From: Pseudoselenomonas ruminantium
Lineage (GTDB): Bacteria > Bacillota > Negativicutes > Selenomonadales > Selenomonadaceae
Direction of reading: 5' to 3'
NCBI RefSeq assembly: GCF_900142515.1
Contig: NZ_FRBC01000022.1
Location: 1-61,772, forward strand
DNA: 61,772 bases
Notes under the pieces: generated by a model
Databases searched by the model: none
Told to the model about the DNA's origin: nothing
Seen by the model: only the letters and a program-made list of their open reading frames with translations
Program-made: the position numbers and the translations under genes
Shown: positions 483 through 22,941 of the stretch, piece by piece
How the letters are laid out: each line of letters opens with the position of its first letter
Numbering within the stretch: the stretch's first letter is position 1

Positions 483-544
483 GTGTCTCATTATTTTGTA
501 TCCTAAAACTAACGTGTGCAGTACGAGAAATGGAGGGATACCAT

Positions 545-1471
545 ATGAGAAAACGCAATCCGGATACCACCATGGAGGAAATCGCCCAAGCATGGCTGAT
601 CGCTCAAAAGTCCCGGGTAAAGTCCTCAACCAATGCCATTTATCATTATGGCTGGCAACATTATCTGTCACCGATTTTTGGGACTTTGCAGCCAGCAAGA
701 ATCACGGAGCAGCTGGTGCAAAAATATCTGCAAGCCAAACGGAATCTGTCGGCACTGACCTTGCGCAATCAGGTTATATTGCTTCGGAATATCCTGAAAT
801 TCGCGCAGGAAAAGTATGGGATAGCCACCGACTATAAAGAAATCTGCTTGCCCGCAGCCTATGGTGAGCGCCTGATCATTGCCAATACTACCTGGCGCAG
901 GCTGCAGCATGTTATCCAGGGCGATGACAGCCTGATTGCTGACTGCATAGCGCTGGCCTCTCTTACGGGTATCCGTCTGGGAGAATGCTGTGCCTTGCAG
1001 TGCATGGATATTGATGAAAAGGAACGGCTTATCTATATCCGTCATACCGTTCAGCGTATCAGGACAACGCATGATCTTTTGCGAACAAGATTGGTTGTAA
1101 GTAGCCCTAAGTCCAAGAAGTCCCGCCGTATCATTCCGATTCCGGACAAGCTATGGACACGTATCCAACGCATCTGTATAGGAAAGGAAAAAACAGATTT
1201 TATCTTCGGTAGCAAGGACAGCCCCATGGATCCCCGCCGTCTTCAATATCAGTTCGCGCAATATCTGCGCCGTCATAAGATAAAAGACTTTAATTTTCAT
1301 CAGTTACGTCATAAATTCGCCACTTGCTGTCTGGAACAGAAAATGGATATCAAAGTCCTCAGCGAACTTCTGGGCCACAGCAGCGTATCTGTCACTCTGA
1401 ACTACTACGTTCATCCAGATTTGAATTATAAACGCCGGCAAATCAATAAATTTGCCAATGCATATCAATGA
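545..1471 (+). CDS. Tyrosine site-specific recombinase (phage-integrase family)
   Basis: A 308-residue tyrosine recombinase that should cut and rejoin DNA at paired core sites. The N-terminal ~100 residues fit the SAM-like core-binding domain. The C-terminal catalytic domain shows Arg144 in TGIRLGE, the HxLR box at His252-Arg255, His278 in LLGHSS and the nucleophile Tyr288 in NYYVHPD, so it looks active. An ATG at 530 is in frame, but the ribosome site GGAGGG at 532-537 fits the ATG at 545 better. It sits directly behind an rRNA operon and has its own strong terminator. The next intergenic region carries two inverted core-site-like repeats. Family assignment is firm. Whether it acts as an invertase or an element integrase is inference. 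Confidence 0.92.
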   Translation: MRKRNPDTTMEEIAQAWLIAQKSRVKSSTNAIYHYGWQHYLSPIFGTLQPARITEQLVQKYLQAKRNLSALTLRNQVILLRNILKFAQEKYGIATDYKEICLPAAYGERLIIANTTWRRLQHVIQGDDSLIADCIALASLTGIRLGECCALQCMDIDEKERLIYIRHTVQRIRTTHDLLRTRLVVSSPKSKKSRRIIPIPDKLWTRIQRICIGKEKTDFIFGSKDSPMDPRRLQYQFAQYLRRHKIKDFNFHQLRHKFATCCLEQKMDIKVLSELLGHSSVSVTLNYYVHPDLNYKRRQINKFANAYQ

Positions 1472-1473: not shown

Positions 1474-1524
1474 AAAAAGCCACCAGCCCTTGCCTGATAA
1501 GGCAAGTTGCTGATGGCTTCTTTT
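1474..1524 (+). terminator. Long intrinsic terminator after the recombinase gene
   Basis: A near-perfect hairpin pairs AGCCACCAGC with GCTGATGGCT, with an inner TTGCCTGATAAGGCAA stem. A-rich flanks and a TTCTTTT tail could let it work in both directions. It ends one base before the first inverted repeat. Confidence 0.8.
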
Positions 1525-1525
1525 C

Positions 1526-1545
1526 GTATAACTGCACTTTTACGA
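1526..1545 (+). repeat. Inverted repeat copy L (core-site-like palindrome)
   Basis: The 20-mer GTATAACTGCACTTTTACGA matches the reverse complement of positions 1686-1705 at 19 of 20 bases. Each copy is itself a palindrome of 7-bp arms (CGTAWAA/TTTTACG) around an asymmetric 6-bp centre, CTGCAC here. That is the architecture of a tyrosine-recombinase core site. Confidence 0.7.
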
Positions 1546-1685
1546 GAATCCCCCGAAAAACCTCGTATCTCAAAGCTTTCGGCAGATATCGACTCGAAAA
1601 AGCAGACTCCAGTTATCTTTCTTAGTCTATGATTTCTACAAAAATCACTTATTTCCTGCTTTTTTCGACGATTTTTGTATACTTT

Positions 1686-1705
1686 TCGTAAAAGTGCAGT
1701 TTTAC
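1686..1705 (-). repeat. Inverted repeat copy R (core-site-like palindrome)
   Basis: TCGTAAAAGTGCAGTTTTAC is the inverted partner of 1526-1545. It contains the perfect palindrome CGTAAAA-N6-TTTTACG with centre GTGCAG. It ends 19 bp before the probable start codon of the TnpB-like gene. Confidence 0.7.
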
Positions 1706-1723
1706 GAATTTAGGGGAGATGTT

Positions 1724-2869
1724 TTGGTTAGGAAAATTGTGCGCCAATATAATGCAGAACCCATTTCTGATGAGGATATGGAAAAACTTCTGACTGTGGC
1801 ACAGGAGTACCGCAAAGTCAAAAATCATATCTACCAGCGGTACAGTGGCATAAAAAGTCTGGCCAAGGTCTATCAGGGGTACACAATCCAACAGGAACTC
1901 CTTCACGACGATTTTCGTAAAACGGTCAACCTGCCGACAATTTACGTGGTGTTGGCCATCAATGAGGCTTTGGGCAATATCAAGGCACAATGGACGGCTG
2001 TCCGTCAGCAGGTACAGAGAAATGTCAGTCAGCATCCAGATTTTGCTGATGAGGCAAAACATTATCTGCGCTATGTCCTGAAAATGCCTCAGCATCTGGC
2101 GGCAATCCTGAACAGGAAAGCTGTTGAGCTGCCAGAGATATTCAATAGGGATAAGCGGGTGTTGGATAACTATCTTTGCCGTCAGGTGCGTAAGGCAATG
2201 CCTGCCAAACTGGCCGCCAAGGAGAGATTCAGTTTCAGTGTTCCGCCTAAATCCGGTTATCGTTACAAGAATCAAGGTATCTATATATCTACTGCCATTC
2301 CCCGCAAACGTGTTTTTATTCCTCTGACGGATAAAAACATCTATGATCGGGAAATCAAGATACTTTTGAAACCACAGGTAGCGGGTGTGGAAATAAAGAT
2401 ACCCGTAGAAGTAAAAACAAAACCAACCACCAGCACAAAAACGATTGGTGTCACCATTGGCTGGCACAGTATGCTGGTTACGGATCAAGGCCATGAATAT
2501 GGCAGGGATTTTGGCAAATATCAGCAAAAGCTGGTTGTTCTGACCAGACATCAACGTCACATCACCAACCAGCCCGGAAATACTCCAGGACAAAAGAAAT
2601 ATTTGATGAGGCGTCATCGTCTGGAAGAACAGCTGCATAGCTATATCAACCATGCAATCAATCTAATGCTGGATACGGAAGAACCGGGCATTATCTGTAT
2701 CCCGAAGATGCCCGCAGCACAAAGTCGCGACGGCAATAAATACCGGAACCACAGCCTGAATCTCTGGCAAAGAGGCTACATCCGCAGACGCTTGAAACTG
2801 AAATGTGAACTGCGAGGCATCGAAGTCCAGGAGATATACGGGAAACCAACCTTTCCAGATAAATGTTAA
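1724..2869 (+). CDS. TnpB-family (IS605 OrfB-like) protein with inactivated RuvC domain
   Basis: A 381-residue relative of TnpB, the RNA-guided nuclease of IS200/IS605 and IS607 elements. The N-terminal layout (LVRKIVRQYN, then KLLTVAQEYRKVKNH) and the late block NLWQRGYIRRRLKLKCELRG match TnpB. All three catalytic acids are missing. The GIDLG motif reads GVTIG (Thr at ~244). The IVIEDL motif reads ICIPKM (Pro at ~327). The ORF stops at PTFPDKC, at or just before the zinc-ribbon start, so the region carrying the third Asp is absent. An open frame from GTG 1694 exists, but AGGGGAG at 1712-1718 fits TTG 1724. No TnpA gene is nearby. It resembles domesticated nuclease-dead TnpB repressors (TldR). 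A decaying transposon gene is the alternative, though the open frame and good ribosome site argue against simple decay. Confidence 0.75.
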   Translation: MVRKIVRQYNAEPISDEDMEKLLTVAQEYRKVKNHIYQRYSGIKSLAKVYQGYTIQQELLHDDFRKTVNLPTIYVVLAINEALGNIKAQWTAVRQQVQRNVSQHPDFADEAKHYLRYVLKMPQHLAAILNRKAVELPEIFNRDKRVLDNYLCRQVRKAMPAKLAAKERFSFSVPPKSGYRYKNQGIYISTAIPRKRVFIPLTDKNIYDREIKILLKPQVAGVEIKIPVEVKTKPTTSTKTIGVTIGWHSMLVTDQGHEYGRDFGKYQQKLVVLTRHQRHITNQPGNTPGQKKYLMRRHRLEEQLHSYINHAINLMLDTEEPGIICIPKMPAAQSRDGNKYRNHSLNLWQRGYIRRRLKLKCELRGIEVQEIYGKPTFPDKC

Positions 2870-3060
2870 TCATTTTACCGAAGCCTTCGGACTGGAAAAA
2901 GTTTTAACAAAATACACAACGGCCTGAGTAGGCAAGTGTAAAACCTTGCGAAACGGACAGGCCAAGACCCTTGGAACAGCAAGCCTGACGTACAAGGGAG
3001 CGAAGCGCAAGCACTGCCGTTATACCTTATATCGCTTGCAAGCCGCAAGGCTAATATAGA
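2870..3060 (+). ncRNA. Candidate structured RNA downstream of the TnpB-like gene
   Basis: About 190 bp without an ORF holds several stacked hairpins. CCGAAGCCTTCGG lies near 2879-2891. GGCCTG at 2922-2927 pairs with CAGGCC at 2958-2963 around an inner GCAAG/CTTGC stem. GCAAGC near 3008 can pair with GCTTGC near 3034, overlapping a CTTGC-AAGCC-GCAAG hairpin. TnpB guide RNAs are typically made from the 3' end of tnpB and its downstream flank, so this is where a guide scaffold would lie. It could instead be the leader of the glycan operon. Confidence 0.35.
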
Positions 3061-3076
3061 TGGGAGTGACAGCACC

Positions 3077-4573
3077 ATGATGAACCGTAGCACCCAAAAA
3101 GAATTAATCAAACTCCTGCTGCAGCTGAATGAAATGTGGCCGCAAATGGAATTGCAGGACAAAGAGCAACAAATCATGGTGCTGGATATCCTGAACACAG
3201 TAACTTCTAAATGTCAGCAGGACTTCAGCAAGGAAAAGACCGCTGAATATACGGACACCCTGCAAGCATTAGGACAAGTAATCCAATCCACAGACTGGCA
3301 GCATACAAGCAAGGAGGAACTTGCCCAGTGCATCGGCCTGTGTCAGGAAATCATATTGCAGGTAACCAACAATCTTCGGCAGGAAAAGGAAATCAAGAAA
3401 GACATTGTCTTCTTGCCCTACAAAGCTTCCATGTGGGACAGCTTCGAAAGCGTGTGGAAAGCTGCCTATGAGGATAAGGAACATTGCAATACTTATGTAA
3501 TCCCTATCCCATATTGTGATCGCAATCCAGATGGCAGTGTGGCACAATGGCATTGTGAAAAGGAGATGTTTCCCCAATATGTGAAAACACTAGACTGGCA
3601 GACAATAGACCTAAAAGAGTGGCATCCCGATATAATTTTTTTTCACAATCCATATGATGATCTGAATCGTGTTACATCAGTGGAGAGTCGTTTTTATTCG
3701 CGAAATTTGAAGGAATGCACAGACAAACTCGTGTATATTCCTTATTTTGTTTTTGATGAAAATTGCAGTGAGGATGATGTTGGTAATTTTGCCTTGAGTT
3801 TGGGCGTAATAAATTCAGATCGAGTAATCGTGCAATCAGAGTCGATTCGTGATAAATATATTAGTGTTTTGACTAAGAGAACAAATCAAACGAATAGATC
3901 ATACTGGGAGAAACGGATTTTGGGATTAGGTTCTCCTAAAATTGATAAGGTAATAAATAGTGAGCGGGAGGACTTTGATATACCAGTTGGATGGCAAAAT
4001 ATGATAGCTGGAAAAAAAGTCATATTATATATTACAAGTCTTACACCTATGCTGGCAAATACGGATAAAGTTTGTAATAAACTTCGAAGTGTATTTGATA
4101 TATTTAGAAAACAACAAGATGTATTACTTTGGTGGCGTCCACATCCTTTAATGAAAGCATCTATACACTCCATGTGTCCACAAATTGAAAAAGAATATTT
4201 ACAGATAGAAAAGGAATATGTAAAAGAACAATGGGGAATTTATGACGAGACAGGAGATTTGCATCGTGCCATAGCTTTCAGCGATGCTTATTACGGTGAT
4301 GGTAGTAGTGTTCATAAACTATATAGCAGAACACACAAGCCGATATTGATACAACAATATGAAGAGATAAAAGAAATAAAACATTCTTTTCGAAAAAAAT
4401 ATAAAGAAGAAGATATACCGAAGGATTTTAAATCTGGCTTGGTGATGGAAGGAGAGCCATTTGACCTATTTGATCTTATTGAAACGGTGAAAAACGTTAC
4501 TTTTGAGAACATTGTAACAGATTTAGTGGAAAGACCTAAGTGGGATAAAATATGGCTGGAAAAGGATAGTTGA
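3077..4573 (+). CDS. CDP-glycerol glycerophosphotransferase-like protein
   Basis: A 498-residue protein. The C-terminal half resembles CDP-glycerol:polyglycerophosphate transferases, with the WRPHPL motif near residue 353 and GDGSSV near 408. It would transfer a polyol-phosphate unit to a surface polymer from the cytoplasmic side. The first ~110 residues are helical and charged, with no recognised domain. The ribosome site GGGAG at 3062-3066 supports ATG 3077. It is the first gene of the glycan locus. Composition changes inside the gene: roughly balanced up to about 3600, then clearly AT-rich, suggesting a recombinant gene. The donor and acceptor are unknown. Confidence 0.65.
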   Translation: MMNRSTQKELIKLLLQLNEMWPQMELQDKEQQIMVLDILNTVTSKCQQDFSKEKTAEYTDTLQALGQVIQSTDWQHTSKEELAQCIGLCQEIILQVTNNLRQEKEIKKDIVFLPYKASMWDSFESVWKAAYEDKEHCNTYVIPIPYCDRNPDGSVAQWHCEKEMFPQYVKTLDWQTIDLKEWHPDIIFFHNPYDDLNRVTSVESRFYSRNLKECTDKLVYIPYFVFDENCSEDDVGNFALSLGVINSDRVIVQSESIRDKYISVLTKRTNQTNRSYWEKRILGLGSPKIDKVINSEREDFDIPVGWQNMIAGKKVILYITSLTPMLANTDKVCNKLRSVFDIFRKQQDVLLWWRPHPLMKASIHSMCPQIEKEYLQIEKEYVKEQWGIYDETGDLHRAIAFSDAYYGDGSSVHKLYSRTHKPILIQQYEEIKEIKHSFRKKYKEEDIPKDFKSGLVMEGEPFDLFDLIETVKNVTFENIVTDLVERPKWDKIWLEKDS

Positions 4574-4654: not shown

Positions 4655-5764
4655 ATGGGACAGATTAACGTGACACGTTCTTCTATGCCACATATGGATG
4701 ATTATATTAGTGAAATAAGAGAACTTTGGGATACGCATTGGCTAACGAATATGGGAACAAAACATAGACAACTTCAGGAAGAACTGAAGAAATATCTTGA
4801 TGTACCTAATGTAGGCTTATTTGTGAATGGACATTTGTCACTGGAGTTATCACTTCAAGCTTTGGAACTTTCAGGAGAGGTTATTACGACTCCGTTTACT
4901 TTTGCATCTACAACGCATGCCATCGTACGTAATAAGTTGGAACCTGTATTCTGCGATATTAATCCAGTTGATTTTACTATGGATGTGGAGAAGATAGAGG
5001 CACTGATAACAGATCGTACAACAGCCATTATGCCCGTGCATGTCTATGGGAATGTCTGTGATGTTGAGCGAATTGAACAGATTGCGAAGAGTTACGGTAT
5101 CAAAGTTATATATGATGCTGCACATACCTTTGGCGTGAAATATAAAGGAGTGAGTACAGCTGCCTTTGGTGATGTTTCCTGTTTTAGTTTTCATGCTACG
5201 AAAGTATTTCATACTATTGAAGGCGGAGCAGCATGTTATCGAGATCTAGAAATAGGGCGTAGATTGTCCAAGTTGCGAAACTTTGGTATTCGTGATGAAG
5301 AATGCGTGGATGGAATCGGAGCGAATGCGAAAATGAACGAATTTTGCGCCGCTATGGGAATTTGCAACTTAAGAATAATTGATGAAGAAATTGCAAAACG
5401 AAAGATGGTTGCAGATAGGTATCGTGAAAATCTTGATCATATAGAAGGAATACAACTGAGTCCTTTACAGCAGAATGTAGAGCCAAATTACGCGTATTTC
5501 CCAGTGATTATTCATGAGAATGTTTTCGGAGCTACAAGAAATGATGTTGCTATGGCTTTGGAAAAAGAAGGAATTAAGGCACGAAAGTATTTTTATCCAT
5601 TAACCAATACATTTGATTGTTTTCATGGAAAATTCGATGTAAGCCAAACGCCTGTGGCATTACATATCAGTAAACGAGTGTTGACACTACCACTTTATGC
5701 GAATTTGGCGTTAGATGATGTAGACAAGATTTGTGAGGTTGTGCTATGTGTGAAGAAAAAGTGA
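4655..5764 (+). CDS. DegT/DnrJ/EryC1-family sugar aminotransferase
   Basis: A 369-residue PLP-dependent aminotransferase of the family that converts keto-sugar nucleotides to amino sugars. Seen: TTPFTFASTTHA near residue 78, the cofactor-contacting D-A-A-H-T-F stretch near 155, and the Schiff-base lysine in SFHATKVFHTIEGGA near 183. The length is normal for the family. GGGGTGAT precedes the ATG. Its product would be a 3- or 4-amino sugar that the downstream acyl- and acetyl-transfer genes could modify. A decayed second copy of the same family lies directly downstream. The exact sugar cannot be told. Confidence 0.85.
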   Translation: MGQINVTRSSMPHMDDYISEIRELWDTHWLTNMGTKHRQLQEELKKYLDVPNVGLFVNGHLSLELSLQALELSGEVITTPFTFASTTHAIVRNKLEPVFCDINPVDFTMDVEKIEALITDRTTAIMPVHVYGNVCDVERIEQIAKSYGIKVIYDAAHTFGVKYKGVSTAAFGDVSCFSFHATKVFHTIEGGAACYRDLEIGRRLSKLRNFGIRDEECVDGIGANAKMNEFCAAMGICNLRIIDEEIAKRKMVADRYRENLDHIEGIQLSPLQQNVEPNYAYFPVIIHENVFGATRNDVAMALEKEGIKARKYFYPLTNTFDCFHGKFDVSQTPVALHISKRVLTLPLYANLALDDVDKICEVVLCVKKK

Positions 5765-5858
5765 GTTTATAATTGTTGTACAAGGAGAAAAATGCAAGTG
5801 TTTTATGATATCTCATTTTGTATATTTATCACAGGAATATGTCACTTGTTAGGAGCAG

Positions 5859-6214
5859 TATGATGTACTCTATAATCTGAAGAATTTTGGCATTCGTGGA
5901 CTCGAATTGGTGGTGGTCGTGGGAGTAAATGACAAGATGAATGAGTTGGCGGCTATTATGGGGATGTGCAATTTGAAGCGACATTGCATAGCAATCGAGG
6001 GGAGCTGTAGAGTGTGCGAGAGGTACAGGGATAATTCGGGTAATATTCCTGGTATTATCTTCTTGAATTCGGAAAGTGCGGAGAGTGCTAATTATACATA
6101 TTTTTCTGTGATTGTTAAGAAGTAGTTCCCGCTAAGTCTCAATGAAGTTTATGATAAGTCAGTAGAAAATAGAATTTTTGCTAGGAAGTATTTTTATCCA
6201 TTTACCTGTGACTA
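5859..6214 (+). pseudogene. Decayed second DegT-type aminotransferase (fragment)
   Basis: In one frame this matches the central and C-terminal parts of the intact aminotransferase upstream. YNLKNFGIRG corresponds to SKLRNFGIRD, NDKMNELAAIMGMCNL to NAKMNEFCAAMGICNL, and NYTYFSVIV to NYAYFPVII. After an in-frame TAG at 6123-6125 the match resumes with ARKYFYPFT against ARKYFYPLT, then ends at a second stop. The N-terminal half with the PLP lysine is missing. It is a paralogue remnant from tandem duplication or replacement, not a functional gene. Confidence 0.8.
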
Positions 6215-6407
6215 GGCATGTATTAGAAATAGGTACAGAAATGATTTGTTGCCTGTAGCAAACAAAGGCTTTTGTCAGAAATATACTGACTTTGCCTTTG
6301 ATATGAAGAGCTAGAGATAGAAGGAATGAACATGATTTGCAAAAAATAAAATAAGGACATATTAGATACAGCATTGTAATTATGTTTTTGATAAAGGAGA
6401 ATGAAAG

Positions 6408-6746
6408 ATGGGGAAGGAGTTATCAAATTCAGAAGCTTTAGCCTCTGAATGAGCAGCTAAAGCATTTGAAGATAAATATGAATGAAACTCTTGTAGAACA
6501 ATCACTTATGGAAGAAAAGGCGAAGACAATAAGATTGAAATGAATGTACATGTTGAAGTATATCCAACACAATATGGAGATTCCAATTTACGGAGCGTAT
6601 TTATATTTTGGGAGGAGGTAGGACTAAATGATTTTCGTGATTTAGGTCTTTATGGTAAATATAGTTGTAGCTATAACAAAATGAGATTTGTAGATGATAC
6701 TTTGGTTATAGAAGGCGACTTTGGAATGAAGATTTATATTAATTAA
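6408..6746 (+). pseudogene. Small unknown gene broken by two in-frame TGA codons
   Basis: AAAGGAG at 6393-6399 is correctly spaced from ATG 6408. The frame runs 112 codons to TAA at 6744 but is interrupted by TGA at 6450-6452 and 6483-6485. Both could be former TGG (Trp) codons. The intact tail from the ATG at 6540 encodes 68 residues with no recognised family. Either the gene is decayed, or only the 6540-6746 part is translated. The AT-rich setting matches the neighbouring remnants. Confidence 0.5.
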
Positions 6747-6802
6747 GAGTTATTATTTGCTAGCTTAGCATAAATGACTGTTATGTAGAGTGAGGGATTT
6801 AC

Positions 6803-7444
6803 TTGAAACATTTGATTATCATAGGCGTGGGAGGTTTTGCTAGGGAAGTTTACTGGCATGCGCAGGACTCATTCGGTTATGGGGAAGAGTGGGATTTGAA
6901 GGGCTTCCTTGATGGCGATGTAAGACTGGATATGGAAGAGTATGAGAAATTGGAATTGCCAGTTTTAGGTGATATTAATAGCTATGAGATAGCTGAAGAT
7001 GATGTGTTCTTCTGTGCCATTGGCAATGGGCAGGTTAGGAAAAAGATAGTAGAGAGTGTGCTAGTTAAGGAAGCGAAATTCATATCACTGATTCATAATA
7101 CTGCAATTATTCAAGGGAATGTAAGTTACGGAACAGGAGTTATGTTTGGTCCTAGAACTTGTGTAGGAGATCATGCTGTTATAGGAGATTTTGTTATTTT
7201 AAATACTGCTTCAGCAGTGGGGCATGATGCACGGATTGATGATTATGTCAGTATTATGAGCTATGTGGATATAACTGGCTATAGCCAGCTTGAAGAGGGG
7301 GTCATGTTTGGTAGCGGTGCTAGGATACTTCCTCATGGAAGAGTTGGCGCTTATGCTACTGTAGGTGCCGGAAGTGTTGTTTTGAGGAAAGTAAAGCCTA
7401 GTACTACAGTTTTTGGTAATCCTGCTGTACCTATTGTAAAGTGA
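6803..7444 (+). CDS. PglD/NeuD-type sugar O- or N-acetyltransferase
   Basis: A 213-residue left-handed beta-helix acetyltransferase. The N-terminus (IIIGVGGFAREVY) is the Rossmann-like sugar-nucleotide-binding part of the PglD/NeuD group. The second half has hexapeptide repeats such as VIGDFVILNTASAVGHDARI, with the catalytic His in VGHDA. The end, KPSTTVFGNPAVPIVK, is typical of the family. The start is TTG 6803 with GTGAGGG upstream. It probably acetylates the amino sugar made by the aminotransferase upstream and opens the acyl-activation cassette. The precise substrate is unknown. Confidence 0.85.
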   Translation: MKHLIIIGVGGFAREVYWHAQDSFGYGEEWDLKGFLDGDVRLDMEEYEKLELPVLGDINSYEIAEDDVFFCAIGNGQVRKKIVESVLVKEAKFISLIHNTAIIQGNVSYGTGVMFGPRTCVGDHAVIGDFVILNTASAVGHDARIDDYVSIMSYVDITGYSQLEEGVMFGSGARILPHGRVGAYATVGAGSVVLRKVKPSTTVFGNPAVPIVK

Positions 7445-7468
7445 ATTAAGTAGATAGGAGTTTTTGAA

Positions 7469-7690
7469 ATGGATATCAATGAGAAAATAAATCTATTGGC
7501 GGAAGCTATGGATGTACTTCCTGAAGAACTTCATGAAGATGACGACTTGACAACTAATGAGAATTGGGATTCTTTGTCTAAACTGGCATTTTTATCTTTA
7601 CTGCAATCAAAATGCAGTAAAAGGATAACGCCTAAAGATATGTCTGCTGTGGTCAAGGTCAGTGATGCATTGAAGCTTATGGAGCCGTGA
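7469..7690 (+). CDS. Acyl/peptidyl carrier protein 1
   Basis: A 73-residue acidic helical protein with the phosphopantetheine-attachment motif as DSL in NENWDSLSKL (Ser near 36). It should carry an acyl or aminoacyl group as a thioester after 4'-phosphopantetheinylation. It ends two bases before the next gene, implying translational coupling. It differs from housekeeping fatty-acid ACP, which has GADSLD, so it is a dedicated carrier for this locus. Partner candidates are the adenylation enzymes and the KAS III homologue downstream. Confidence 0.8.
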   Translation: MDINEKINLLAEAMDVLPEELHEDDDLTTNENWDSLSKLAFLSLLQSKCSKRITPKDMSAVVKVSDALKLMEP

Positions 7691-7691
7691 T

Positions 7692-8447
7692 ATGAATCCT
7701 TTTCAGCTAAATGATAAAAATATCATAGTAACTGGAACTGCATCTGGCATTGGCAGGGATACGGCAATGCTTTTGCATGAAATGGGTGCTAAGTGCATGT
7801 TGTTGGATATGAATGAGGAAGGGCTGGCAGAAACTAACCGACTCATTGATAATAAAGGTCTTTGCTATGTTTGTAATCTTACATAGTTTGACAGTCTTAA
7901 AGATATTTTCCAAAAGGGCAAAGAGCAGATGGGAGCGTTTAATGGTCTGGTTCACTGTGCAGGTATTCCTTCCATTGTGCCTTTGCGTGGGCTGACGGAT
8001 GAGATGTATGAACAGGTACAAAAGATAAATACTCAAGCAGGTCTGCATTTGGCAAAGCTGTTCTCGCGTAAAGGGATGTACAATGGGGGACGATGTTCCA
8101 TTGTTTTTATATCTTCCGTCTATGGCCTTGTAGGTTCTGCTTCTAGTGTAGCATATGTTGTCAGCAAAGTAGCTATCGTTGGTCTGACAAAGGCTCTTTC
8201 TATGGAGTTTGCTCCTAAGAATATCAGAGTAAATTGTGTAGCTCCCGGATTTGTAAAAACTTCTTTGGGAGAACGCTATACAAGCTTTTTAGATGATGCT
8301 TATTCTGAGCGTGTAGGCGCTATGCATCCGTTGGGGTGGGGCGAGCCGAGAGATATTTCCTGTGCCATTGCATTTCTTTTGTCGGATGCAGCTAAGTGGA
8401 TTACAGGTACGGTGCTGAGTGTAGATGGTGGCTTTACGGCACAGTGA
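7692..8447 (+). pseudogene. SDR-family reductase interrupted by an in-frame amber codon
   Basis: The frame encodes a 251-codon short-chain dehydrogenase with TGTASGIG near residue 15, the NAG-like VHCAG, the catalytic YVVSK (Tyr155, Lys159) and the end VLSVDGGF. A single TAG at 7884-7886, after NLT and before FDSL, splits it. CAG (Gln) to TAG is the simplest origin. Everything downstream stays in frame and conserved, so the break is recent, a sequencing error, or suppressed. If intact it would be a 3-oxoacyl-ACP-reductase-like enzyme, similar to the next gene. Confidence 0.75.
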
Positions 8448-8458
8448 GGTGATACAGG

Positions 8459-9211
8459 ATGGATTATGTATTGATTACTGGCGCTTCCTCAGGCGTAGGC
8501 CGTGAAACGGCCATACGCCTGTCTACGAGCAGGAATCTTATCCTGAACGGCAGAGATGAAGCAAGACTTCAGGAGACCAAAGAACTCTGTGATAAGGGTA
8601 AGGATATACTTATTTGGAATTATGATCTTACTTGCTCGGAGAAGTTGGAAGAACAGTTTTCAGCCTGGCTCAAGGAACAAGGAGTTCAGGTGGAGGCGTT
8701 GGTTTACTCGGCAGGAATGCTTAAAATGCTGCCATTGAGAGGATTAAAACTTGAGGATTTCCAAAGTACATACTCATTGCATGTGTATTCTCCCGCCTTG
8801 TTGGTCAAATTGTTGAGTTCCAGAAGGGTTAATGGACAGGTGTTGAAGTCGGTTGTGTTTATTTCCAGTAACATCAGCAACCGAGGCGCAGTAGCTTTTA
8901 GTGTGTACGGATCTTCAAAAGCTGCGTTAGATGGTTTGATGCGTAATTTGGCGATAGAGCTTGCTCCAAGGGTGAGGGTGAACTCTATCCTGCCCGGAGG
9001 CATGGTTACTCGTATGACTACGGCCATGTACAATGCAGAAGCTGTTCGCGATGAGACTAAGGGAAATGTTCCTTTAGGGCCAGGGGCGCCTCGGGATATT
9101 GCCTCTGTAGCGGAGTTTTTGATTTCTCCTGCTTCTGGTTGGATGACGGGACAACAACTTACAGTTGATGGTGGCAGAACTATAGATGTGACTGATGGAA
9201 GAGGGTTGTAA
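8459..9211 (+). CDS. SDR-family oxidoreductase (3-oxoacyl-ACP-reductase-like)
   Basis: A 250-residue short-chain dehydrogenase. It has the NAD(P)-binding TGASSGVG at residues ~7-14, the catalytic YGSSK near 150-154, and the C-terminal LTVDGGRT. It probably reduces a keto group on a carrier-bound acyl chain or on a sugar. It lies 11 bp after the broken paralogue and may cover its activity. Substrate cannot be told from sequence. FabG-like and sugar-reductase roles are both possible. Confidence 0.85.
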   Translation: MDYVLITGASSGVGRETAIRLSTSRNLILNGRDEARLQETKELCDKGKDILIWNYDLTCSEKLEEQFSAWLKEQGVQVEALVYSAGMLKMLPLRGLKLEDFQSTYSLHVYSPALLVKLLSSRRVNGQVLKSVVFISSNISNRGAVAFSVYGSSKAALDGLMRNLAIELAPRVRVNSILPGGMVTRMTTAMYNAEAVRDETKGNVPLGPGAPRDIASVAEFLISPASGWMTGQQLTVDGGRTIDVTDGRGL

Positions 9212-9234
9212 ATTTTGAAGGAGGCAGTAGCTTA

Positions 9235-10743
9235 GTGGTTATCACAGATTATCTTGATACAAACGCAGAAAGAGTTCCTGATAAAACTGCCATAGTTGAC
9301 GGTGAGAAGGAGCTCACCTTTGCCCAGCTGCGTGATAGTGCTCGTCGGGTAGCTTCAGAACTTGCTGGCTTGGGAATCTTCCATCGGCCTGTGGCAGTGT
9401 ATTTGGAGCAGAGTGCTGAGTCAGTTGTTTCCTTTTTGGGAGCTGCTTATTCCGGGAATTTTTACACGGTGCTGGACAGCAAAATGCCGACCGAGAGATT
9501 GCGGAAGATTGTTGAAGTGCTGGAGCCGGCAGCTATTATAACTGATGAAAAGCAATTTGTTGATGCACAAATATTCGCGGGGGGAAAAACGAAAAAACTC
9601 CTCATCTCAAATCTTTTGCAAGCTGATGCCAATGAGGGCAAGTTAGCAGAAGTAGCGGGCAGAATCAGTGCGATGGATGTGCTGTATGTGCTCTTTACCT
9701 CCGGCTCTACGGGTATTCCCAAGGGAGTCACCATTGGACAACGGTCAGTCATGGATTATACGGAGTGGGTGACTGAGACTTTTCGAGTAGATGAGCATGA
9801 TGTCATAGGGAACCAAGCTCCCTTTTACTTCGATAATTCCGTGTTGGACATCTATCAGATGGTGAGCACCGGTGCGACCTTGCACATCATTCCTCGGAAG
9901 TTGTTTGCTTTTCCTTTGCGCCTGTTGGAATATGTGCGGGAGCATGGCATCAACATGGTATTTTGGGTGCCTTCGGTACTTTGCACCATTGCTAATTTTG
10001 AGGTGCTGGAGGCCTGCGATGTTTCCTGTCTGAGGAAGGTGCTATTTGCCGGTGAAGTCATGCCAAATAAGCAGCTGAATGTTTGGCGCAAGGCTTTGCC
10101 GGAGGCTCTTTTTGCCAATCTATATGGCCCTACGGAGATTACCGTGGATTGCACCTACTATATGGTGGATAGGGAGTTTGCAGATTCTGAGCCATTGCCC
10201 ATCGGTGTTCCTTGTCGGAATTCTACGGTGCTGGTGCTGGATGAAAATAACAGACTGGTGACGGGACAGGAGCAGGGTGAGCTTTGCGTCAGGGGGACAT
10301 CCCTGGCGTATGGCTATTACAACAACCCAGGGAAGACAGCCGAGGTTTTTGTGCAAAATCCCTTAAATCCTGATTATCCTGAAATCATCTACCGCACAGG
10401 CGACCTGGTTCACTACAATGAGCGGGGAGAACTCATGTATGACGGCAGGAAGGATTTCCAGGTGAAGCATATGGGCCACCGTATTGAGCTGGGAGAGATT
10501 GAGACGGCAGCTTCGTCTCTTGATGGGATTGATAGTTGCTGTTGTCTCTTTGATGGCACAAAGGACAGGTTGATTCTTTGCTATACGGGAGATTTTGAGG
10601 AAAAGGAACTGAGGAAAAGCCTCCTTGACCTCTTGCCTGATTATATGGTGCCAAGGCTCTGCCATCAGCTGGGCAGCATGCCGCTGAATCAAAATGGAAA
10701 AATTGACCGGGTGAAGCTGAAAGCGATGTTTTGCCCGGCTTAA
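9235..10743 (+). CDS. Free-standing adenylation enzyme 1 (DltA/NRPS A-domain-like)
   Basis: A 502-residue AMP-forming ligase. Motifs in order: A3 LFTSGSTGIPKG, the YFDNSVLDIY segment whose Asp normally binds an amino-acid alpha-amino group, A5 NLYGPTEITVDC, A7 YRTGDLV, A8 GHRIELGEIE, and the A10 lysine in NQNGKIDR. No carrier domain is fused, so it should load a separate carrier protein, as DltA does with DltC. The start is GTG 9235 after a GGAGG site. It pairs with a close homologue directly downstream. An amino-acid substrate is inferred from the Asp. D-alanine is possible but unproven. Confidence 0.85.
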   Translation: MVITDYLDTNAERVPDKTAIVDGEKELTFAQLRDSARRVASELAGLGIFHRPVAVYLEQSAESVVSFLGAAYSGNFYTVLDSKMPTERLRKIVEVLEPAAIITDEKQFVDAQIFAGGKTKKLLISNLLQADANEGKLAEVAGRISAMDVLYVLFTSGSTGIPKGVTIGQRSVMDYTEWVTETFRVDEHDVIGNQAPFYFDNSVLDIYQMVSTGATLHIIPRKLFAFPLRLLEYVREHGINMVFWVPSVLCTIANFEVLEACDVSCLRKVLFAGEVMPNKQLNVWRKALPEALFANLYGPTEITVDCTYYMVDREFADSEPLPIGVPCRNSTVLVLDENNRLVTGQEQGELCVRGTSLAYGYYNNPGKTAEVFVQNPLNPDYPEIIYRTGDLVHYNERGELMYDGRKDFQVKHMGHRIELGEIETAASSLDGIDSCCCLFDGTKDRLILCYTGDFEEKELRKSLLDLLPDYMVPRLCHQLGSMPLNQNGKIDRVKLKAMFCPA

Positions 10744-10756
10744 CGGGGGCGTTGCT

Positions 10757-12289
10757 ATGCAGATAAATGTGGTGGAATACTGGCTAAATTATGTTTCGGA
10801 TGAAGCCATACGCAATAAGATTGCGGTGGTGGAGGAAGGAAAGGAAACTTCCTTTGGTGAGCTTTTCGACAGAGCCGGAGTGCTGGGAGAGCAGCTGATA
10901 AAGAACTTTTCGGACACCGGCCGTCCCATGGCGATATTCCTGCCGAAATGCGCGGAACAGATGGCTGTGGATATGGCTGTTCTCTATAGTGGTAATGCCT
11001 ACAGCAATCTGGACATCCGCCAGCCGGAAGAACGCACCAAGCGGATTATCGAGCAGTTGCAGCCTTTGTGCATTCTTACAACCAGTAACCTTGCTGCTAA
11101 ACTGGAGCAGGCAGGGGATGTGCCGGTCATCTGCCTTGAGGATATTCAAGGAGAGGTCTATGACCTTGAGGTTATCAAGGAGAGACTGGCAGGTATCGTG
11201 GACACTGACCCGCTCTGCATCATCAACACTTCCGGTTCCACGGGTACCCCAAAAGGGGTAGTCATGAACCACAGGAGTATCATTGATTTCCTCGATCAGG
11301 GGTGCAGGGTGCTGGATATCGGCCATGGTGAGCGCATTGGCAGTCTTTCACCGGTTTACTTTGATATCTTCACCTTGGAGTTTTACCTGATCCTTTGGAA
11401 ACAGGCGGTGTTTGTCTGCATTCCAGAGAATCTCGCCATCTTCCCGGAGAGGCTGGCGGAGTTCCTGGAGGAAAAGCAGATAGACTTCATCTGCTGGGTG
11501 CCTACGGTGATGGTGAATATGGCCAATCTGGATATTCTGGCTGGCCATCCTCTGAAGAAGATGAAAAAGGTGCTTTTTGCCGGGGAGGTTTTTCCTCTCA
11601 AACATCTGGCCTACTGGAGGGAGCACTTGCCCCAAGCAGAGTTCATCAATATGTACGGCCCTATCGAGATCACCGTGGATTGCCTCTATCACAAGGTTAC
11701 TAAGGAAGATATCGAGAAGGGTGAACTGCCCATTGGCAAAGTATTCCCCAATACCAAGGTCTACATTCTGGATGAGGAAGACAAAGAATGCCAGGCAGGA
11801 GAAACAGGCGAGCTTTGCGTCAGCGGTACATCCCTGGCTATGGGCTATTACCGTGACAAGGGAAAGACCGAACGGGCTTTCGTGCAGAATCCCTTGAACA
11901 AAGCCTACATAGAGATTATCTACCGCACCGGCGATATGGTGCGCCGCAGGGATGATGGAGAAATTATCTTCCTGGGGCGCAGGGATTTTCAGGTGAAGCA
12001 CCTAGGCTATCGTATTGAGCTGGGAGAAATCGAAGCTGTGGCGGTAGGGATGACGGAGATAGACAATGCCTGTGTGCTCTATGACCATGGGGAAAAGAAG
12101 ATAGTCCTTATCTATGAGGGCAGGGAGGAAATCCCCTTCAGGGATATCCGCGAAGGCATCGGCAAAGTGCTGCCAAAGTATATGCTGCCTAATATCTGTT
12201 ACAGGGTAGAGGAAATGCCCAGAAATCCTAATGGGAAGATAGACAGGAAAAGGCTGCAGGATGAGTATGTGTGTCATAAAGGTGAGTGA
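10757..12289 (+). CDS. Free-standing adenylation enzyme 2 (DltA/NRPS A-domain-like)
   Basis: A 510-residue paralogue of the preceding enzyme with the same motif set: INTSGSTGTPKG, YFDIFTLEFY (Asp kept), NMYGPIEITVDC, YRTGDMV, GYRIELGEIE and NPNGKIDR. The substrate-pocket segments differ from the first copy, so the two probably activate different acids. It sits 13 bp after the first and overlaps the acetyltransferase gene's GTG. GC content is higher than in the flanking glycan genes. The two ligases plus two carriers suggest a two-building-block pathway. Confidence 0.85.
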   Translation: MQINVVEYWLNYVSDEAIRNKIAVVEEGKETSFGELFDRAGVLGEQLIKNFSDTGRPMAIFLPKCAEQMAVDMAVLYSGNAYSNLDIRQPEERTKRIIEQLQPLCILTTSNLAAKLEQAGDVPVICLEDIQGEVYDLEVIKERLAGIVDTDPLCIINTSGSTGTPKGVVMNHRSIIDFLDQGCRVLDIGHGERIGSLSPVYFDIFTLEFYLILWKQAVFVCIPENLAIFPERLAEFLEEKQIDFICWVPTVMVNMANLDILAGHPLKKMKKVLFAGEVFPLKHLAYWREHLPQAEFINMYGPIEITVDCLYHKVTKEDIEKGELPIGKVFPNTKVYILDEEDKECQAGETGELCVSGTSLAMGYYRDKGKTERAFVQNPLNKAYIEIIYRTGDMVRRRDDGEIIFLGRRDFQVKHLGYRIELGEIEAVAVGMTEIDNACVLYDHGEKKIVLIYEGREEIPFRDIREGIGKVLPKYMLPNICYRVEEMPRNPNGKIDRKRLQDEYVCHKGE

Positions 12290-12291
12290 AA

Positions 12292-13098
12292 ATGCGGCTG
12301 ATAGAGGATATACAGGAAATTAAGGACGCCATCACTCAAGTGAAAGAATTGGGGGATGAGTGGTATACGAATTACTACATATCTGATGGCGTTGCAGAAG
12401 TGTGGATTAGTAAACAGCAACTGATGATGTATCGGCACAAGAATGTAGTGTTTATATTTCGCAAGAGAAATAATTTCTCGTTAGTATACTACTTCGCTTC
12501 ATCCTTTGATGGATTAGTTTCAAGTATAAAGGGCTTGCTTGATTCTACAACGGAAACATTATCTATAGATGTACTGCAGAGAAATGGTACTGAATGCACT
12601 GTTGGAAATGCTTTCCTTAAGGCAGGGTTTGATAAGAGAGTGCGTCTGCACCGCATGAAGTTTGATGCCAAAATATATGAATCATGTAATTTTGATGATA
12701 TATATTATGCAGATGTGGATGATGCAGAATCCGTATATGACATGCTTCATAGTGAATTCGATGAACTATGTGAACAAATACCTGATTTGGATGAAATAAA
12801 AAATGCAATAAGTAATAAGGAGATTATGGTTATAAAAGATAACTCCATGCTTATAGCGTTCCTTTGGATAGAACGGATAAGAAAAATTGCCATGATTAGG
12901 TATTGGCTGACCAATCCGGAATATCGTAGTCGTAATTTTGGTGCCAAGCTTATGAAGTATGTTTTATCTGCCAATAAAGATGCAACGCAGGTTTTGGTAT
13001 GGGTGAGGGAAGATAATATAAGGGCTATAAAGAAGTACGAAAAAATGGGATTTATTAATGATATTCTTGTGGATGATGTATATTGTTTAGTTAGATAA
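12292..13098 (+). CDS. GNAT-family N-acyltransferase
   Basis: A 268-residue protein whose C-terminal ~110 residues show a GNAT fold: MLIAFLWIERIR, then the acetyl-CoA loop region NPEYRSRNFGAKLMKYV and IRAIKKYEKMGF. The N-terminal ~140 residues are weakly conserved and may be a second, degenerate GNAT-like half. An in-frame GTG at 12286 overlaps the previous stop, but AAAGGTGAG fits ATG 12292. Between the adenylation and carrier genes, it could move an acyl or aminoacyl group from a carrier thioester to a sugar amine. The acyl donor is unknown. Confidence 0.7.
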   Translation: MRLIEDIQEIKDAITQVKELGDEWYTNYYISDGVAEVWISKQQLMMYRHKNVVFIFRKRNNFSLVYYFASSFDGLVSSIKGLLDSTTETLSIDVLQRNGTECTVGNAFLKAGFDKRVRLHRMKFDAKIYESCNFDDIYYADVDDAESVYDMLHSEFDELCEQIPDLDEIKNAISNKEIMVIKDNSMLIAFLWIERIRKIAMIRYWLTNPEYRSRNFGAKLMKYVLSANKDATQVLVWVREDNIRAIKKYEKMGFINDILVDDVYCLVR

Positions 13099-13117
13099 AA
13101 GATTTGGTGAGGTTCGT

Positions 13118-13354
13118 ATGAAAAAAATTATTGAACTTTTGGCAGAGATTCGCCCTGAGTATGACTTTGCAGGCAGCAATGATTTTTTCGAGGATGGTTA
13201 CCTTGATTCCTTTGACCTGATAACTTTGGTAGCGGCTCTGGACAAGGAGTACCACACGAAAATCAAGGGCACGGATATAGTGCCGGAGCATTTCTGCAAT
13301 CTGGAGGAAATCCGCAAGCTGATGAAGGGGTATGGAGTAGAGGATGATATTTGA
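13118..13354 (+). CDS. Acyl/peptidyl carrier protein 2
   Basis: A 78-residue acidic protein with the carrier motif GYLDSFDL, whose Ser near residue 33 would take phosphopantetheine. Its end overlaps the KAS III homologue by 11 bases, so the two are likely translated together. Together with carrier 1 it gives the locus two distinct dedicated carriers. Which ligase loads which carrier cannot be told from sequence. Confidence 0.8.
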   Translation: MKKIIELLAEIRPEYDFAGSNDFFEDGYLDSFDLITLVAALDKEYHTKIKGTDIVPEHFCNLEEIRKLMKGYGVEDDI

Positions 13355-14408
13355 GTATCGCAACAAGAAAATCACGGGCCTTTTGACCATTGTCCCCAAG
13401 AATATCCGCACCTTTGATGAGGAAATGGAGAATTACAAGGCTGACAAGGCCCGCAACAAGCGGCTGAAGATGGTTATGGGCTACGAGCAGCACCGTATGT
13501 TTGATGATGATGTGTGCGTGTCGGATATAGCAGTATTTGGCATGGAGTATCTCTTCAAGGAAGGACTCTTGAAGAAAGACGAAATAGATGCCCTAATACT
13601 TGTTACCCAGTCCCCGGATTACTTCATGCCAGCCACTAGTAATATTATTCATGGCAGACTGGGACTGCCGGAAGATGTCTATTGCATGGATATCAACCAG
13701 GGCTGTGCTGGCTTCCTGGTGGGCCTGATGCAGGCCTTTGCCCTGTTGGATCAGCCCACGGTGAACAAGGTGGTCATGATAAACGCCGATGTCCTGAGCC
13801 GCAAGGTGTCTAAGGCCGACAGGAACAGCTATCCCCTAGTTGGCGATGCTGCCTCCATCACCATCGTTGAAAGCTGTCCTGAAGAAAACTTGATACAGGG
13901 CGAGATTCGCATGGATGGCAGTCGTGCTGAGATGCTCATCATCCCTGCAGGTGGTTTCCGCACTCCTAGCACACAGGAAACTGCCATCATGCATGAGGAT
14001 GAGGAAGGCAATAGCCGTAGCCTTGACAACCTGGTTATGGGTGGGCGCGAGGTCTTCTATTTCGTCCAGACTGAGGTGCCGAAGCTCATTGAAAGCCTGC
14101 TGGAGCGCATTCAAATGCCCAAGGAGAAAATCGACTGGTGGATGTTCCATCAACCCAATAAGTTTATGGTGGATAAACTGGCAGAGGCGCTGGATGTGCC
14201 CTACGAAAAAATGCCCAGCAACATCGTCACCTACTTCGGCAACGCTAGCGGTGTGACTATACCGACTAATGTGGTTTATAACATTGGGGGGAAGCTGGAG
14301 CAGGAAGAATATAAGATTTGCTTTGCCGGGTTTGGAGTGGGGCTGACTTGGGGGGCGTTGGTGATGGATGTTTGTAAGTTAGACTTTTGTCGATTGATAG
14401 ATATGTGA
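13344..14408 (+). CDS. 3-oxoacyl-ACP synthase III (FabH)-like ketosynthase
   Basis: A 354-residue KAS III-family enzyme with an apparently complete Cys-His-Asn triad: Cys near 120 in NQGCAGFLVG, His near 270 in MFHQPN and Asn near 302 in FGNASGVTIP. KAS III enzymes condense a CoA-bound starter with a malonyl-carrier or, in specialised pathways, act as acyltransferases. The overlap with carrier protein 2 points to that carrier as partner. It lies in a sugar-modification locus rather than a fab operon, so the product is probably a short beta-keto or beta-hydroxy acyl group for a glycan. That product is inference. Confidence 0.82.
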   Translation: MIFEYRNKKITGLLTIVPKNIRTFDEEMENYKADKARNKRLKMVMGYEQHRMFDDDVCVSDIAVFGMEYLFKEGLLKKDEIDALILVTQSPDYFMPATSNIIHGRLGLPEDVYCMDINQGCAGFLVGLMQAFALLDQPTVNKVVMINADVLSRKVSKADRNSYPLVGDAASITIVESCPEENLIQGEIRMDGSRAEMLIIPAGGFRTPSTQETAIMHEDEEGNSRSLDNLVMGGREVFYFVQTEVPKLIESLLERIQMPKEKIDWWMFHQPNKFMVDKLAEALDVPYEKMPSNIVTYFGNASGVTIPTNVVYNIGGKLEQEEYKICFAGFGVGLTWGALVMDVCKLDFCRLIDM

Positions 14409-14448
14409 AAAAATCTTTACATAATTTTTTGAAATTTGAGGGGGCTAA

Positions 14449-14717
14449 ATGTCAGTTTCTTAAAAAAATAATAAAGATATTGAACATATAAATAGTGAAG
14501 TAACTGGAAATAAATTAAATTTGAAGAGTGTGGCTATGATTCTTGATACGCAAAGACCAAAGATTGGGATAGAATTAAAAAATGAAATTTTTGATAGAAT
14601 ATTTCAATTTACTTGATTAAAGATTGTCAGTTATATATAAGGCAATACTCAGCGGATGTGTGGAAGACGATTTGTGTGCTGTTTAATTGCGTGCTAGATG
14701 AACTGGGCGTGGGATAA
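14449..14717 (+). pseudogene. Probable remnant of a small gene (unknown family)
   Basis: GAGGGGGCTAAATG gives a good start at 14449, but the frame stops after four codons next to an A-rich run. The same frame then stays open to TGA at 14614 (KLNLKSVAMILDTQRPKIG is seen). A shifted frame stays open from ~14610 to 14715 (YIRQYSADVWKTICVLF). Read with one stop and one frameshift it would be a protein of about 85 residues. No family is recognised. Confidence 0.35.
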
Positions 14718-14733
14718 AAGGAGCTTGATATCT

Positions 14734-16125
14734 ATGAGAATATGTGAACGTGCGTTGAATTTCATACAGATCATCAACGCTGAGGGAATTGTAAGAAATT
14801 GTAGTTGGCAGTATGATGGTGGCGTTATAGGAAAATTATCAGAAGCATCAATGGAAGAAATTTATAATAGTGAAGAAGCAAACCTTATAAGAAAAAAGCA
14901 TTTTGATAAGGATTATAGTAACTGTAATCCGAACGCATGCCCTTATGTGGCAAACAATAATGTAGATAAGCATTCTTTGAATGTGGATGAGGTTCCAAAA
15001 TTTCCACAAGAATTGCATCTTGCTTATGAAAATGTATGTAATTATCATTGTGTGACTTGTACTATACCTTCATGTATGGAGTATAATAGAAGCCGTCAGG
15101 AGATTTTAGAACAGCAGTACAATCATATTGATAATGAATTAAAAAAAGTTCTCCCGTATGTAAAACATTTAACTGCGAATGGGCTAGGAGAATTTTTTGT
15201 CAGCAAGCATATTATGAGATTGATGCAGAATTGGGAACCGAACTACCCAGCAAAAGAATGTAGGGCTGGAATAGAAACTAATGGTTCGCTTTTTAATGAA
15301 AAGAATTGGAAAAAGGTGGAGAATTTAAGCCGTTTTAATCTTGAAGTCGCAATTACAGTAATGAGCTTTGAAGAGGAAGCATATCAGTATCTATCTGGAA
15401 CAAAGCTGCCAGTCTCTAATATTATTGACAATCTTCGATTTGTGAAGGAACTTAGGGAAAGAGGTATAATTAACCATTTGGAACTGGCCACGGTCTATCA
15501 GGAGGGGAATTTCCGTACCCTGCCTGAATTTTCACGGCGTTGTATAGAGGAGTTTGGCGCTGATTATGTAAGGCTGCGTCCTTACGAGCCATGGGTTGAT
15601 CCAGGTCTGGATGATTGGATGAAGGATGTCAGAAACGCAGATAATCCATATCATGGTGAATTCCTGCAGGTTATGAAACATGAAATTTTTAAGCATCCCA
15701 AGGTACACGACTGGGGTGGTGGAAAAGAAAGCGGTCTAGGGAAGGCTATTTATCCTAAAAGTATGAGCCAGTTCCGCTTAATGGATAAGATTTTATGTAT
15801 AGATGATTTCAGCGATAGAGTTAAGAATGTATTAGATTCTGAAACAGTCATGATTTACGCAATGACAACAGCAGGTAGATTTTTAACTAAAATACTATCC
15901 AAGGATATGATAGTTCCCTATTTGATGGACAGAGGGCAGTCTGGAAATGTGTATCAGAACATACCTATTATGGGAGTATCTAATTTTGATCATTTAGATA
16001 AGGATCTGCCTGTGATTATTGCTTTGACTACAAAGTCAGCTATCATGGTGAAGGAAATGCTCAAACGAGCAGGCTACAAGAGAAAAATTGTAACTATTGA
16101 TGAACTTATGGTCTTGATTGCCTGA
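14734..16125 (+). CDS. Radical SAM protein with SPASM-like cluster region
   Basis: A 463-residue protein. The radical SAM cluster motif CNYHCVTC (CxxxCxxC) lies near residue 108 in LAYENVCNYHCVTC. It is preceded by a Cys-rich segment, C-S-W with CNPNAC, that looks like a SPASM cluster domain. SPASM domains usually follow the radical SAM core, so this order is unusual. The last ~110 residues resemble the Rossmann-like tail found in some sugar-modifying proteins. AAAGGAG at 14717-14723 fits ATG 14734. It probably performs radical chemistry on a sugar or carrier-bound intermediate; the substrate is unknown. Confidence 0.75.
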   Translation: MRICERALNFIQIINAEGIVRNCSWQYDGGVIGKLSEASMEEIYNSEEANLIRKKHFDKDYSNCNPNACPYVANNNVDKHSLNVDEVPKFPQELHLAYENVCNYHCVTCTIPSCMEYNRSRQEILEQQYNHIDNELKKVLPYVKHLTANGLGEFFVSKHIMRLMQNWEPNYPAKECRAGIETNGSLFNEKNWKKVENLSRFNLEVAITVMSFEEEAYQYLSGTKLPVSNIIDNLRFVKELRERGIINHLELATVYQEGNFRTLPEFSRRCIEEFGADYVRLRPYEPWVDPGLDDWMKDVRNADNPYHGEFLQVMKHEIFKHPKVHDWGGGKESGLGKAIYPKSMSQFRLMDKILCIDDFSDRVKNVLDSETVMIYAMTTAGRFLTKILSKDMIVPYLMDRGQSGNVYQNIPIMGVSNFDHLDKDLPVIIALTTKSAIMVKEMLKRAGYKRKIVTIDELMVLIA

Positions 16126-16185
16126 TAGAGTGATAGCTATTAAATGAAGTTTGCGATATGTTTTATGATGAATGCGGAGATAAAA

Positions 16186-17178: not shown

Positions 17179-17210
17179 AGAGATATAGTTTGTTGGAAGA
17201 AGGAATAAAT

Positions 17211-18653: not shown

Positions 18654-18746
18654 TCAGTATTTTTGATTAATACGTATAGTTTTTATCTTTCGATGATTTT
18701 TATTATATTATATGAAATACAAGTATTTGTGGAAGGTGATATTGAT

Positions 18747-21025: not shown

Positions 21026-21049
21026 AAATCTAGGAAAGGATGATTGTCC

Positions 21050-22931: not shown

Positions 22932-22941
22932 GGGGATAATT

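Follow-up and report, generated by a model that had tools for sequence, protein, structure and literature searches.

The contig NZ_FRBC01000022.1 of Pseudoselenomonas ruminantium, analysed here over positions 1 to 61,772 (nucleotides, nt; "the window"), carries at the head of a long surface-glycan gene cluster a homologue of TnpB that lacks all three RuvC catalytic acids and is followed by a structured, guide-RNA-like scaffold. The gene belongs to a family of dead tnpB genes with the same scaffold and, in most cases, the same partner gene. The elements that define it in the window are the following:

1724..2869, + strand: nuclease-dead TnpB homologue; TTG start, 381 amino acids, the last of which is the first zinc-ribbon Cys
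2872..2895, + strand: possible 5' part of the scaffold, an TTTTACCGA..GGACT element recognised by eye in several relatives, outside the covariance model
2919..3031, + strand: scaffold core, guide-RNA-like; covariance model R2, 60.9 bits, E 1.5e-12
3032..3076, + strand: variable 3' stretch, putative guide; boundary set on relatives
3077..4573, + strand: Glyphos_transf protein, the usual partner gene; PF04464, E 4.6e-6

Loss of the catalytic acids in a TnpB fold

The first-pass annotation, made from the letters alone, had read the open reading frame (ORF) at 1724-2869 as a TnpB homologue. The NCBIfam model for guided TnpB, NF040570, matches its product (E 3.5e-7), PHROG 12300 matches at E 1.1e-11, and the PHROG transposase families matched number two. 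No TnpB model of Pfam was matched at E up to 1, and phmmer found no match in the PDB; by sequence the protein is TnpB-like but remote. An AlphaFold model built from a 46-row alignment has a mean predicted local distance difference test score (pLDDT) of 87.1, and its top structural neighbours are TnpB and Cas12f. ISDra2 TnpB in complex with guide RNA and DNA aligns to it with a Z score of 17.3 and a root-mean-square deviation of 3.9 over 300 residues, and the homology first read from the sequence is borne out by both the NCBIfam model and the fold. In the family alignment Thr244 occupies the position of the GIDLG Asp (D1) and Pro327 that of the IVIED Glu (E2), the two replacements reported initially. 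The chain stops, as had also been stated, where the zinc ribbon begins: its last residue is Cys381, the first zinc-ribbon cysteine, and the third acid (D3) is therefore absent. Model and alignment together describe a full-length TnpB fold predicted to lack RuvC catalysis. The frame is open over 381 codons with AGGGGAG 5 nt before its TTG start, in agreement with the earlier description of an open gene with a good ribosome site. The reported lack of TnpA holds as well, since the gene upstream encodes a tyrosine recombinase and a Pfam scan of 23 ORFs around it matched no Y1 transposase (IS200/IS605 TnpA).

A pattern-based scan of 84,980 species genomes returned at least 102 relatives, 80 of which were kept as loci (given L numbers below). 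They come mainly from Lachnospiraceae, with some from Selenomonadaceae and others, and the frame is open across the match in 78 of the 80. The source genome carries one copy, and an order-level search gave a match in 9 of 189 genomes, the source genome counted in. Catalytic residues and matches to NCBIfam and PF07282 were counted on alignment A4, which holds 77 proteins (68 + 8 + the window copy) and excludes L063 and L069, whose frames are broken, L097, which lacks a start, the near copies L038, L062, L065 and L072, and L033, L055, L067, L088 and L091, which are the same loci as L002-L006. D1 is kept in none of the 77, its column holding His, Ser, Tyr, Ala or Thr; E2 is likewise kept in none (Thr, Pro, Ala, Val or Met), and D3 in none of the 76 members that reach its column (Ala, Lys, Arg, Ser, Pro or Gly). 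The NCBIfam TnpB model matches all 77 proteins, and 76 retain the PF07282 domain (TNB zinc ribbon), the window copy being the sole exception. The catalytic loss noticed in the window gene is thus real but not private to it, being common to all aligned members, whereas the C-terminal loss, which had been likened to that of TldR proteins, is present in the window copy but is no family trait (1/77) and may be decay or streamlining.

The family is under purifying selection. Among the 40 most similar of 221 pairs, the ratio of nonsynonymous to synonymous substitution rates (dN/dS) lies between 0.04 and 0.26 in 38, far from the neutral values that would have spoken against a functional protein, and the other two pairs are saturated; these values hold for family pairs and not for the window copy, whose nearest relative is ~45% identical. 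Because the loss is family-wide and dN/dS is low, the catalytic loss must be old and the dead protein selected for.

Some relatives lie on viral contigs. The window protein had no match in a collection of 50,697 phage records, and the L041 protein, searched against phages and plasmids, met partial, distant TnpBs only, with no close relative among the same phage records. On viral contigs L167 and L168 a dead TnpB of the family adjoins the glycan gene, and since the neighbouring genes look phage-like by eye, some family copies may be prophage-borne. On a third viral contig, L169, positions 5980-7377 encode a relative in which GIDKG, IVMEQ and HADTN are kept, by eye; it is a candidate for the nearest active TnpB and could yield the target-adjacent motif of the clade.

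A covarying scaffold and the stretch beyond it

Covariance model R2, trained on 18 sequences from Lachnospiraceae and relatives, the window excluded, has a single match in the window, and in the whole genome, at 2919-3031. A second model, R1, agrees on the site (E 3.2e-6) but ends at 3062, so that the start of the putative guide in the window is ambiguous between 3032 (R2) and 3063 (R1); R1 also gives two extra places in the window, at E 0.086 and 0.26. Rfam, searched against window positions 1-6000, left the scaffold unmatched at E up to 1. By the covariance models the scaffold lies 3' of the gene, on the + strand, in 76 of 80 loci (missed in L033, at a contig end, and in L042, L055 and L087; matched twice in L062). 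For the 15 scaffolds inspected across five genomes, dead tnpB lies upstream of all 15 and the partner gene downstream of 11.

The scaffold RNA covaries across the family. In two alignments 16/24 and 15/25 pairs show compensatory changes, with both sides altered and pairing maintained, and 96.2% (A3) and 95.5% (A6, which excludes the window) of cells are paired, against 28.6-47.8% when partners are slid by 1-3 columns; none of 500 shuffles of A3/A6 reaches the observed pairing. The window scaffold keeps two helices, one of them with a compensatory pair, and is missing the last hairpin.

The boundary between scaffold and variable stretch, analysed on 29 subclade-1 and 18 subclade-2 loci in which the scaffold end is clear, is sharp. 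In the 29 subclade-1 loci conservation falls from 2.0 bits to at most 0.73 directly after CCTTATT; A/T makes up 83-93% at the 6 nt that follow, above most later positions. The paralogous loci L036 and L043, from one metagenome-assembled genome (MAG), are 91-93% identical before the boundary and 72-76% identical beyond the variable part; in between, ~200 nt run at the random level of identity. Loci sharing a genome vary in what follows the scaffold: L214, L215 and L216 (genome G190) are alike at 18-19 of 20 nt, with differences in the presumed seed (the first 6 nt); two loci of G195 are alike at 15/16 nt; and two loci of one MAG have no common sequence there.

An apparent guide array in Dorea sp. 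5-2, with two scaffold matches 32 nt apart, was rejected, as the DNA looks like a single scaffold carrying a large insertion. In Selenomonadaceae copies (L005, L006, L007, L011) a small hairpin-like stretch with pair-keeping changes, by eye, follows the scaffold, and part of the presumed guide may therefore be structural in these copies.

Glycan synteny and the segment in front

The remaining features of the locus flank this core on both sides:

530..1471, + strand: tyrosine recombinase, candidate invertase of the adjoining segment; PF00589 Phage_integrase, E 8.4e-26
1523..1545: left arm of an inverted repeat (22 of 23 bp)
1546..1685: candidate invertible segment, 140 bp
1686..1708: right arm of the inverted repeat
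4655..24747, + strand: remaining surface-glycan cluster, with sugar, acyl and glycosyl-transfer genes

Across the family dead tnpB is linked to a non-transposon gene. A homologue of the 3077-4573 product lies near it in 67 of 80 loci (the window not counted), mostly next downstream and in some loci upstream. In the window the cluster continues with DegT, PglD, SDR, AMP-binding, KASIII, GT2, WavE, DUF4422, IspD-like and epimerase genes, and NAPRTase and shikimate dehydrogenase genes come after 24,747; the gene had been placed at the head of a surface-glycan locus, and the glycan genes do run on to ~24.7 kb.

The 530-1471 product matches the profile of the family's upstream recombinase with E 6.3e-110. 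Profile hidden Markov models identify an upstream recombinase in 35 of 82 sequences, 27 of the tyrosine and 8 of the serine type. The tree requires 6 and 5 changes of these type labels, 5 and 4 of them imposed by well-supported branches, so that recombinases were swapped repeatedly. Inverted repeats stand beside the recombinase gene in the window, and across the family repeats of a small kind occur just upstream in 29 of 67 loci versus 5 of 640 control windows. A large kind, which in the tyrosine set spans the recombinase gene, occurs in 24/63 loci versus 12/240 controls, and either kind in 52 of the 63 loci whose upstream DNA reaches 1500 nt. In 24 of the 27 tyrosine-recombinase sequences (e.g. 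L035, L070, L098) there are long-range repeats of at least 21 bp; that of L053, perfect over 100 bp, lies where a contig ends and may be an artefact of assembly. Many long-range repeats resemble TTTCGCAGATTxxxxAATCTGCGAAA and enclose the recombinase gene, which is on the minus strand in 7/27 of these sequences, as if the switch carried its own enzyme.

Promoter-bearing segments are inverted between loci. Those of L036 and L043 (365 bp, 92.9% identical) lie in opposite orientations; both bear TTGACA-17-TATAAT, which in L036 points toward the gene and in L043 points away. The segments of L076 and L089 are likewise mutually inverted; that of the window is known in one orientation only.

A proposed guided regulator and its alternatives

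We propose, with a probability of about 0.6, that the dead TnpB is a TldR-like RNA-guided DNA-binding regulator within phase-variable glycan operons, repressing without cutting. The protein would be made as an early gene of the surface-glycan operon, followed by its own guide RNA with a structured scaffold and a variable 3' end. At most loci a repeat-flanked segment in front would be worked by the recombinase, and because the promoter in clear cases lies on that segment, the ON state would be needed for both the protein and its guide RNA to be produced. The complex would then bind DNA without cleavage and block transcription. RNA binding, DNA binding or targeting, and repression are extrapolated from relatives, and repression has to be, because no convincing guide target was found; candidate targets would be the operon itself, glycan loci elsewhere or further surface genes. 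In a related TldR clade, also chromosomal, binding of guide RNA and DNA has been shown (PMC13418256). The initial reading of the gene as a nuclease-dead TnpB derivative, here taken as exapted, gains from the conserved guide-RNA-like scaffold adjoining it, from purifying selection on the family and from its place at the head of a glycan locus. Filed by sequence, the family would form a glycan-associated branch of TldR-like proteins.

A bolder version is tentative, and we hold it less probable than not by some distance: the complex made from the ON operon might silence competing glycan or surface genes, an RNA-guided mutual exclusion among glycan operons, of which gut Lachnospiraceae and Selenomonadaceae would often have several per genome. 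Silencing of competing operons would leave one coat at a time per cell.

Several results weigh against guided repression. The guides have no convincing target in their own genome, show no excess of matches to own promoters and little or no excess to other loci of the same genome, and rank on average at 0.40-0.71 over 63 settings against the own partner gene. No guide target stood out in five Selenomonadaceae genomes or in the genome of Schaedlerella arabinosiphila. The divergence of guides is not general, because among 20 related pairs several (L037/L038, L057/L060, L076/L089) stay similar past the scaffold. Nor were the parts of the switch found at every locus: the recombinase appears in 35 only of the 82 sequences, with insufficient DNA upstream in 19 of the 82; 11 of the 63 loci have no qualifying repeat (L020, L028, L030, L041, L042, L062, L068, L072, L084, L093 and L096, the 13-bp repeat of L084 being below the cut-off); and no sigma-70-like promoter was found in the window segment 1546-1685. 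Finally, the window copy is without a zinc ribbon and the last scaffold hairpin, and its end branch on the tree is 1.65 versus a median of 0.3.

When the 18 nt after the scaffold were compared with all collected loci at up to 3 mismatches, unrelated places never fell under 2 mismatches, and the better matches fell in further copies of the locus or of one related to it. In G190 the L037 guide has nine near matches besides itself (2 mismatches of 16; backward control 0), one of which is L176, a second family locus, and the other eight were seen as short contexts. The L026 guide matches at 16/17 from guide position 1 (~0.03 expected, an estimate) between two ORFs that are galE-like and cell-wall-binding-like by eye, and an S. 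arabinosiphila guide has a 14-nt exact match in an ORF (~0.05 expected, also an estimate) whose neighbours are glycosyltransferase-like by eye. In a studied TldR a 6-nt guide can be enough (PMC13418256), and short targets may therefore be missed.

The alternative that survives best concerns the window copy alone, which is the least typical member found and whose function is less sure than that of the family: it is possible, although we do not favour it, that this copy is decaying or was inactivated recently, while the family as such is functional. To the missing zinc ribbon, unique among the 77 members, the missing hairpin, the long end branch and the segment without a promoter match can be added that no orthologue was found in 21 other genomes of the genus. 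Against decay stand the 381-codon open frame with its ribosome site, the two helices kept in the scaffold, one with a compensatory pair, the inverted repeat with its recombinase, and the confident full-length predicted fold (mean pLDDT 87.1).

Autoregulation in cis is unlikely. Here the scaffold end, CTTATT or CTTATG as DNA, would itself be the target-adjacent motif, and the complex would bind right behind its own scaffold. This site precedes the glycan operon, and the guide would always match there without any need to be conserved. CTTAT(T/G) is near-invariant at the scaffold end, the guides have no convincing match elsewhere, the scaffold mostly lies just upstream of the partner gene, and an A/T-rich start would ease DNA opening. 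Scaffold ends are, however, conserved for structural reasons also, normal TnpB generally avoids its own locus, and CTTAT(T/G) is only putative as the clade's target-adjacent motif.

We give a still smaller chance to the view that the dead TnpB binds the nascent operon RNA and, in the manner of RfaH- or LoaP-like factors, affects how the glycan genes are elongated or translated, with no DNA target. The structured RNA does sit in the leader of a long glycan operon, and the DNA target searches found none. Such a leader-RNA regulator is at odds with the retention of the whole DNA- and RNA-handling TnpB fold, with the sharp end of conservation and the A/T-rich variable stretch next to it, and with the loci in which the partner gene lies upstream of dead tnpB. 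An ordinary active transposon TnpB has TnpB homology only in its favour and can practically be dismissed, as the three catalytic acids are all absent, an intact D-E-D site was found in none of the aligned members, no TnpA lies beside the gene, and the motifs are kept, by eye, in the relative L169.

For the RNA-guided regulator, the closest described system is that of the csrA-associated chromosomal TldRs of Oscillibacter and Flavonifractor (PMC13418256), which target fliC genes and are preceded by hin and by promoter inversions of ~120 bp. They share with the glycan family a dead TnpB, a 3' scaffold RNA, an origin in gut Clostridia, an upstream recombinase with a small promoter inversion, and several loci per genome (PMC13418256). 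They differ in that the gene linked to the glycan family is Glyphos_transf and not csrA, and in that the glycan-family recombinases are mostly of the tyrosine type (27/35) and often inside the repeat-flanked segment, versus Hin-type serine enzymes (PMC13418256). The window locus has a tyrosine recombinase upstream and no Hin-type serine invertase. With a CsrA query, csrA was found in 1 of 81 sequences (L084) and was absent from the window. L084 combines csrA, a serine recombinase and its 13-bp repeat beside a glycan gene, and because it falls inside subclade 2 of the tree, the csrA-TldR and glycan groups appear to be connected. The prophage fliC-TldR of Enterobacteriaceae is alike in its dead TnpB, adjoining guide RNA and surface-structure gene, whereas the glycan family is mostly chromosomal, is linked to glycan and not flagellin, and has a promoter inversion in front (PMC13418256).

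ISDra2 and other TnpB nucleases share the whole-protein fold and an RNA scaffold 3' of the gene, but unlike them the glycan family has neither catalytic acids nor transposase and shows conserved host synteny. Bacteroides capsule loci have invertible promoters and UpxY/UpxZ, a NusG-like antiterminator and its inhibitor. They resemble the present loci in having several glycan loci per genome, invertible promoters and a regulator gene at the head, and differ in the head gene, which in the glycan family encodes a dead TnpB and comes with a guide-RNA-like scaffold. TldR was reportedly named in a 2024 Nature paper, and a TnpB census is said to have appeared in PNAS in 2023. No paper on dead TnpB at glycan loci was found in the open-licence literature, judged by titles and abstract starts, subscription papers lying mostly outside that scope.

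Mutual exclusion, if true, would be an RNA-guided counterpart of the capsule cross-inhibition of Bacteroides. Natural control of the CRISPR interference (CRISPRi) kind would then extend beyond flagellin and be recurrent in gut-bacterial surface variation, tied to DNA inversion, joining the fields of TnpB exaptation and invertons. S. arabinosiphila, with three such loci, is a directly testable isolate, and a working member without a zinc ribbon would show which TnpB parts are needed for guide-RNA binding.

The contig opens with 23S rRNA (1-100, the 3' end of the gene) followed by 5S rRNA at 286-402, which places the locus just downstream of an rRNA operon.
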